Shown here: positions 34,145-34,571 of the stretch, piece by piece
How positions within the stretch are numbered: the first letter of the stretch is position 1
Layout: every line of letters starts with the position of its first letter
Source of the DNA: Candidatus Saganbacteria bacterium
GTDB lineage: Bacteria; Margulisbacteria; WOR-1; O2-12-FULL-45-9
Direction: 5' to 3'
DNA: 42,014 bases
NCBI GenBank assembly: GCA_016219705.1
Contig: JACRKQ010000078.1
Location: 1 to 42,014 of the forward strand
Made by a program: the position numbers and the translations under genes
The notes under the pieces: model-generated
Seen by the model: only the letters and a program-made list of their open reading frames with translations
The model's database searches: none
What the model was told of the DNA's origin: nothing

Positions 34145-34222
34145 GATTATTTTACTGACGCAAAATTTATTGTCGGGAGCCAGAATCTCCCGATGCTCCA
34201 TTTATTAATAAAAAAATCGGGA

Positions 34223-34259
34223 TCCCGTTGTTACCACATTATTATAATGAGCAACGGGA
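34223..34259. repeat. hairpin TCCCGTTG...CAACGGGA flanking the tRNA-Met cluster
   Basis: 8-bp perfect arms 34223-34230 and 34252-34259; preceded by ATCGGGA. Confidence 0.75.
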
Positions 34260-34262
34260 GAA

Positions 34263-34291
34263 CTGGCGACCTAGGGCTTATGAGTCCCTCG
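34263..34291 (-). pseudogene. tRNA-Met fragment: anticodon arm and variable region only
   Basis: 22 nt CCTAGGGCTTATGAGTCCCTCG (34270-34291) identical to 34339-34360 in the intact tRNA. Confidence 0.8.
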
Positions 34292-34310
34292 TCCCGATGT
34301 GTTAGTCGAA

Positions 34311-34386
34311 TTGCCGGGAGTCGGGATTGAACCGACGGCCTAGGGCTTATGAGTCCCTCGCTCTAGCCAACTGAGCTATCCCGGCA
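34311..34386 (-). tRNA. tRNA with CAT anticodon, most likely elongator Met
   Basis: Minus strand TGCCGGGATAGCTCAGTTGGCTAGAGCGAGGGACTCATAAGCCCTAGGCCGTCGGTTCAATCCCGACTCCCGGCAA; 7-bp acceptor; anticodon loop CTCATAA. Confidence 0.85.
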
Positions 34387-34403
34387 ATTCGACGGTATCG
34401 GGA

Positions 34404-34446
34404 TCCCGACGATTCCATAATTATTATACATTAATGAACGTCGGGA
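34404..34446. repeat. hairpin TCCCGACG...CGTCGGGA flanking the tRNA-Met cluster
   Basis: 8-bp perfect arms 34404-34411 and 34439-34446; preceded by ATCGGGA. Confidence 0.75.
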
Positions 34447-34470
34447 CTCTAACCAACTGAGCTATCCCGA
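34447..34470 (-). pseudogene. tRNA-Met fragment: 5' acceptor strand and D-arm only
   Basis: Minus strand TCGGGATAGCTCAGTTGGTTAGAG, 22/24 identical to the 5' part of the intact tRNA at 34361-34384. Confidence 0.8.
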
Positions 34471-34571
34471 CATATCTTTTGCCGAGTATTTTAGGATATC
34501 ATAAGCTTAAAATATTTGCAATAATCGCAAGGCAATGTTAAAATTAGCCCAAACACGGAGGTGCTCATTTG

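Follow-up and report, generated by a model that had tools for sequence, protein, structure and literature searches.

Essential single-copy tRNA genes are usually taken as vertically inherited. Tyrosine-integrase genomic islands, as documented by Islander, integrate in tRNA and tmRNA genes (PMC4383910); in such tDNA islands a tRNA gene is split, an intact one is restored and a displaced fragment is left behind. The locus described here has all these features, but one of its inserts carries a whole tRNA in a hairpin and has the two halves of the old gene on either side. No integrase gene is present in the inserts, which hairpins and one tRNA fill between them. SegB of phages T4 and T6, a free-standing GIY-YIG nuclease, is encoded beside tRNA genes and cuts inside them at the motif RAWTSGAAC (PMC13096335), the reverse complement of which, GTTCSAWTY, is T-loop sequence by our own reading of the motif. 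SegB is a phage protein, while the genes considered here are bacterial and accompany both a replacement tRNA and a 5' fragment of the former tRNA; the copy in our window has no nuclease.

REP/REPIN sequences with their RAYT transposases (PMC3733652) also are short palindromes arranged as inverted pairs and present in many copies, but the family found here inserts precisely in tRNA loops and can carry a tRNA. Neither the GTAG nor the CGTC tag of REP/REPIN was found at the element ends, where TCCCG/CGGGA directly adjoins the target. Rickettsia palindromic elements (PMC3767692) are inserted inside genes as well; however, they have been described inside protein genes, whereas the present elements disrupt tRNA genes and may supply a substitute. 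Group I introns of bacterial tRNA genes share with our elements the insertion in tRNA genes, but there is no ribozyme match in the window: RF00005, the tRNA covariance model, was the sole match of the Rfam search, which returned no intron family, no ribozyme and no hairpin-pair family. Judging from its sequence, the window element would work like a target-restoring tDNA island and like a homing element, yet without an integrase or a nuclease. We found no description of this architecture in the literature searched, which leaves out most subscription papers, and nothing relevant on Saganbacteria or on tRNA together with GIY-YIG and Omnitrophota.

The interrupted tRNA-Met gene of the window

The window is the whole of the 42,014 nt stretch analysed (contig JACRKQ010000078.1 of GCA_016219705.1). 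Its host is an uncultured WOR-1/Saganbacteria-type bacterium, and the assembly is a fragmented, 87%-complete metagenome bin of 94 contigs. Genomes compared are given G-numbers (G000 being the window's own) and loci L-numbers; class-wide counts refer to 31 genomes and order-wide hairpin-pair counts to 19.

A tRNA-Met gene on the minus strand is split into three pieces by two insertions, each of which is one pair of hairpins with TCCCG...CGGGA ends. A promoter-like TTGCAA-17 bp-TATCCT sequence (34493..34521) lies just upstream of this outer gene. Piece 1 (34447..34472) comprises the acceptor 5' strand and the D-arm and is broken after nt 26 of the gene by element 1, which consists of hairpin A1 (TCCCGACG...CGTCGGGA, 34404..34446), which belongs to a family with repeated copies in most of the order's genomes, and hairpin B1 (TCCCGAT...ATCGGGA, 34292..34403). 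The loop of B1 holds an intact tRNA-Met(CAT), located at 34312..34385 by Infernal and at 34311-34386 by ARAGORN. Piece 2 (34260..34291) extends from the anticodon arm through the variable loop and the T-stem 5' strand to TTC. There, in the T-loop (GTTC^GATT), the gene is broken again by element 2, made of hairpins A2 (TCCCGTTG...CAACGGGA, 34223..34259) and B2 (TCCCGAT...ATCGGGA, 34188..34222). Piece 3 (34171..34187) contains the rest of the T-arm and the acceptor 3' strand, GATTCTGGCTCCCGACA. The inserts are 155 and 72 bp long, and hairpins and tRNA account for all of both. Joined, the three pieces read TGTCGGGA...TCCCGACA without the loss of any base and are called tRNA-Met(cat) by ARAGORN, so they represent one interrupted gene and not two independent half copies.

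The initial annotation of this DNA had placed the intact tRNA, the partial copies and the hairpins correctly. It described two half copies, which exist as pieces 1 and 2, but missed piece 3 and hence the single gene that all three form; the two hairpins it reported are real, each being one member of a pair (A1+B1 and A2+B2). The outward extension of the inner acceptor stem is there too, with 8 bp (GTCGAATT/AATTCGAC) instead of the 7 given, and it is on this extension that the inner tRNA sits in the B1 loop. The covariance-model search proposed at that stage returned one intact tRNA-Met with 66 bits against a gathering threshold of 29 (RF00005), and ARAGORN and Rfam together recognise only this one intact tRNA, tRNA-Met(CAT), in the segment.

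Three observations indicate that the hairpins are not a product of chance. The window contains 8 matches to the TCCCG-N-CGGGA pattern where 1.2 are expected, the 302-nt strand of the locus folds with -130.3 kcal/mol (z = -8.2 relative to shuffled sequences), and the hairpin-pair pattern TCCCG-N20-45-CGGGATCCCG is found in 16 of the 19 genomes of the order, with no hits for the reversed-pattern control. The fold of the whole transcript places the arms of the outer tRNA together.

The promoter and both flanks of the locus are those of the outer gene. Relatives have one unbroken tRNA-Met at the same place, between a response regulator gene and small membrane protein/TilS genes, and a single tRNA-Met was found at this locus in every relative examined except G003. 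A similar TTGCAA...TATnCT precedes the lone tRNA-Met of relatives such as G001 and G006 and also the G003 locus, and AATAAATTTTGCG, which directly follows piece 3, recurs in G006 behind its single tRNA. The relatives thus preserve the empty site, which bears out the earlier suggestion of an intact tRNA unit inserted into another tRNA and gives no support to that of a degenerating tandem array; nor does the lossless joining of the outer pieces.

No elongator tRNA-Met other than the inner gene was found in the 87%-complete assembly (the 14 lowest-scoring tRNA matches were not individually read); the two other CAT tRNAs look, by their sequence features, like initiator tRNA-Met and tRNA-Ile2. Inner and outer tRNA-Met differ at 10 of 74 positions, with compensated changes in the stems, and the inner one has a single difference from the tRNA-Met of G012, G017 and G023. 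tRNA-Met differences do not track families well enough to point to a donor of the inner gene.

Nested tRNA genes and hairpin pairs in other genomes

The window is one of five cases in which an intact tRNA with the same anticodon as the outer gene is placed inside hairpin B, the others being tRNA-Val in G009, tRNA-Lys in G004 and G012 and tRNA-Leu at the Omnitrophota locus L225; B1-like hairpins are present in all of them. These four further cases again agree with insertion of one tRNA unit into another, and both partial tRNA copies and hairpins, which the initial annotation had proposed to look for in related genomes, do recur there. It had also considered that relatives might have ordinary tandem tRNA genes with varied deletion endpoints, and for the nested cases this is not what we see. 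In G003 (Met) and G008 (Val) the 5' part of the outer gene is lost, and these loci look like decayed nested versions at later stages. Once joined, the pieces of the outer Met, Val and Lys genes give well-formed tRNAs. The outer Leu gene of Omnitrophota has a T-stem mismatch, so some of the outer genes may be plain old duplicates.

The history of the interrupted gene is clearest for tRNA-Lys. When joined, the outer tRNA-Lys of G012 matches the unbroken gene of G010, a congener, letter for letter, and that of G004 has one difference from the gene of G006. In contrast, the inner allele type (GCACC...GGTGC with the flanks ACCAAATAT/ATATTTGGT) is common to two genomes of different families, G004 and G012, with 89% identity over about 244 nt including the flanks. 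G013, G016 and G011 have this allele type as their resident tRNA-Lys. For Lys, this sequence comparison establishes the outer gene as the native allele and the inner one as an allele common across families; therefore, the insertion into the old gene was recent and precise, and the inner allele is of outside origin. The inner tRNA seems to have come in as a replacement, with no base lost at the insertion. Compensatory differences between the outer Lys genes of G004 and G012 could be mistaken for selection on the outer gene, but each of these is simply the native allele of its own clade.

Insertions are not confined to nested cases. T-loop insertions exactly at GGTTC^R gave 37 hits in 12 of the 31 genomes of the class and none for the reversed-pattern control, and other sites include the D-loop, the D-stem/anticodon junction and the anticodon loop. 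In G017, G012 and G004 (L085, L090 and L141) the tmRNA gene has behind it a partial 3' copy whose T-loop contains a hairpin pair. An intact tRNA of the same isotype adjoins most of the interrupted genes examined, and partial tRNA copies are common in these genomes. A scan of named genomes placed the hairpin family in WOR-1/Saganbacteria/Margulisiibacteriota; many Omnitrophota T-loop insertions are among the matches listed, which include chance hits in GC-rich genomes. At two Omnitrophota loci, L187 and L222, the unit consisting of the 3' tRNA part with a hairpin pair in its T-loop is tandemly duplicated, and a group I intron (RF00028, 107 bits) lies close by, at 720-904 of L222. The viral collection contained a single exact match to the T-loop insertion pattern (L411, an IMG/VR contig).

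The second hairpin of a pair is approximately the reverse complement of the first, which makes the pair a palindrome of palindromes. The arms vary between copies yet remain paired: base pairs 6, 7 and 8 are kept in 51, 48 and 37 of 54 copies, against shuffled means of 23, 36 and 21, respectively. The stem covariation noticed in the initial annotation is therefore real, but it belongs to a dispersed repeat family and not to a private structured RNA. Three hairpin pairs of G000 and most of those retrieved from G002 lie outside tRNA genes, so tRNA targeting is a preference of only a part of the family. A shorter hairpin pair, TCCCGCCTCC...GCGGGATCCCGCAAAGCGGGA, was observed at three non-tRNA places of G000 (L005, L009 and L010 on C37, C60 and C94), adjoining CATTTG/CATTCG-type repeats.

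The Y1 transposase domain PF01797 is encoded in 21 of the 31 genomes, including G000. RAYT/Y1 mobilisation is probably not general in the family: Y1 was not found in G013, G009, G003 and G001, all of which have hairpin pairs, though several of these genomes are incomplete.

GIY-YIG nucleases beside tRNA genes

Small GIY-YIG genes are associated with tRNA genes in this class: 51 of 77 are located within 300 bp of a tRNA, compared to none of the 20 Y1 transposase controls (P = 2e-8). In 22 of the 25 motif-resolved pairs the nuclease gene has a 5' fragment of the same tRNA upstream, giving the order 5' fragment-nuclease-intact tRNA; at L335 the nuclease reading frame ends within the intact tRNA. 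The nuclease, the replacement tRNA and hairpin pairs occur together at L153 (Asp), L335 (Pro), L336 and L338, the last of which, the Lys locus of G011, carries the same mobile Lys allele type as described above. We infer that the nuclease drives insertion.

No GIY-YIG gene was found at the window locus, and a motif search of the Omnitrophota T-loop sites found almost none, which is the weak point of a nuclease-driven origin. The window's own genome does have a nuclease version at initiator tRNA-Met (L398, G000:C40:10600-13200). At this locus the GIY-YIG gene lies directly upstream of the initiator tRNA-Met and is itself preceded by a 5' tRNA fragment whose D-loop contains a repeated GACCCTACGGGTCTTC palindrome. 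At L361 and L395, dead tRNA-Leu fragments upstream of GIY-YIG genes have a different palindrome, CCTGCCTGCCGGCAGGCAGG, in their D-loop.

Origin of the interrupted genes

We consider it probable that the native tRNA-Met gene was broken by a mobile hairpin-pair element which brought a complete replacement tRNA with the same anticodon. The element would have entered the native gene with the full replacement tRNA in the loop of its second hairpin, precisely, with no base lost and none duplicated. Such an insertion would inactivate the old gene. Its promoter would now drive the carried tRNA, which would supply the lost function, and the outer gene would be left to decay; the T-loop of this broken gene also contains a second hairpin pair, which is empty. 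The element presumably moves as DNA. Small GIY-YIG homing nucleases that cut the T-, D- or anticodon arms of tRNA genes may create the entry sites, or may have done so formerly, with the window element being a nuclease-free passenger of their system. On the sequences at hand, the elements are best read as tRNA-targeting and self-rescuing, the window holding a version free of nuclease.

A more general reading, which we put forward tentatively and hold to be possible rather than probable, is that of a bacterial self-rescuing tRNA homing system, where tRNA genes of the recipient are cut by a GIY-YIG nuclease and each destroyed gene is replaced by a different allele of the same tRNA. This allele would arrive on the incoming DNA, which consists either of nuclease and tRNA or of a hairpin pair enclosing a tRNA in its loop. 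If true, native tRNA genes would be swapped over time for foreign ones across families and phyla, and the system would be nature's equivalent of a gene drive that includes a rescue copy. The loci suggest that tRNA genes in at least two phyla have repeatedly been broken and replaced by mobile DNA bearing its own substitute. This would account for odd tRNA phylogenies, for tRNA fragments beside intact genes and for the tendency of small GIY-YIG genes to cluster at tRNAs, and it raises the question of whether the old allele is cut by these nucleases and the new one spared.

Alternatively, REP/MITE-like palindromes preferring tRNA-like DNA hairpins could insert opportunistically and be tolerated only in redundant tRNA copies, so that they are seen in pseudo-tRNAs beside intact copies that arose by ordinary duplication or transfer. 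Several different palindromes in loops of dead tRNA fragments (e.g., CCTGCCTGCCGGCAGGCAGG), the hairpin pairs outside tRNAs and the abundance of partial tRNA copies fit this scenario, but we regard it as unlikely: the intact same-anticodon tRNA inside a hairpin (Met, Val, Lys and Leu) would be left unexplained, and so would the inner allele and flanks common to G004 and G012 together with the unbroken gene of G010. Because the outer pieces join so well, split-tRNA and intron readings were taken up first. Were the hairpin pairs introns removed from the transcript, the outer tRNA would be functional and the locus would make two tRNA-Met, as could be expected from the well formed joined Met, Val and Lys genes, from insert ends lying exactly at the junction and from the fold that gathers the outer arms. 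These readings lost weight in view of the intact same-isotype copies adjoining most interrupted genes examined, the loss of outer 5' parts in G003 and G008, and the identity of the G012 outer gene with the unbroken G010 gene, which reflects youth and not selection. In addition, Rfam gave no intron match here, though it recognised the group I intron in L222. To our knowledge, bacteria have no splicing enzyme for such junctions, and altogether we find introns quite improbable.

It is still harder to see the locus as the remnant of a tyrosine-integrase island, whose integration regenerates the tRNA gene and leaves a displaced fragment. An intact regenerated tRNA beside such a fragment is indeed the hallmark of tDNA islands (PMC4383910), but the 155 and 72 bp inserts contain no protein gene, a whole tRNA is carried and not its 3' part alone, no part of the outer gene is missing on either side of the insert, and the nuclease of the fuller versions is of the GIY-YIG type; this origin is highly improbable. 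An assembly artefact might be suspected in a metagenome bin fragmented into 94 contigs, tRNAs being repetitive sequences. We find it barely credible, since the same architecture recurs in independent genomes of two phyla, and versions with hairpins and with the nuclease are also present in the one-contig genome G010 (matching record MEUD01000001, titled curated complete).
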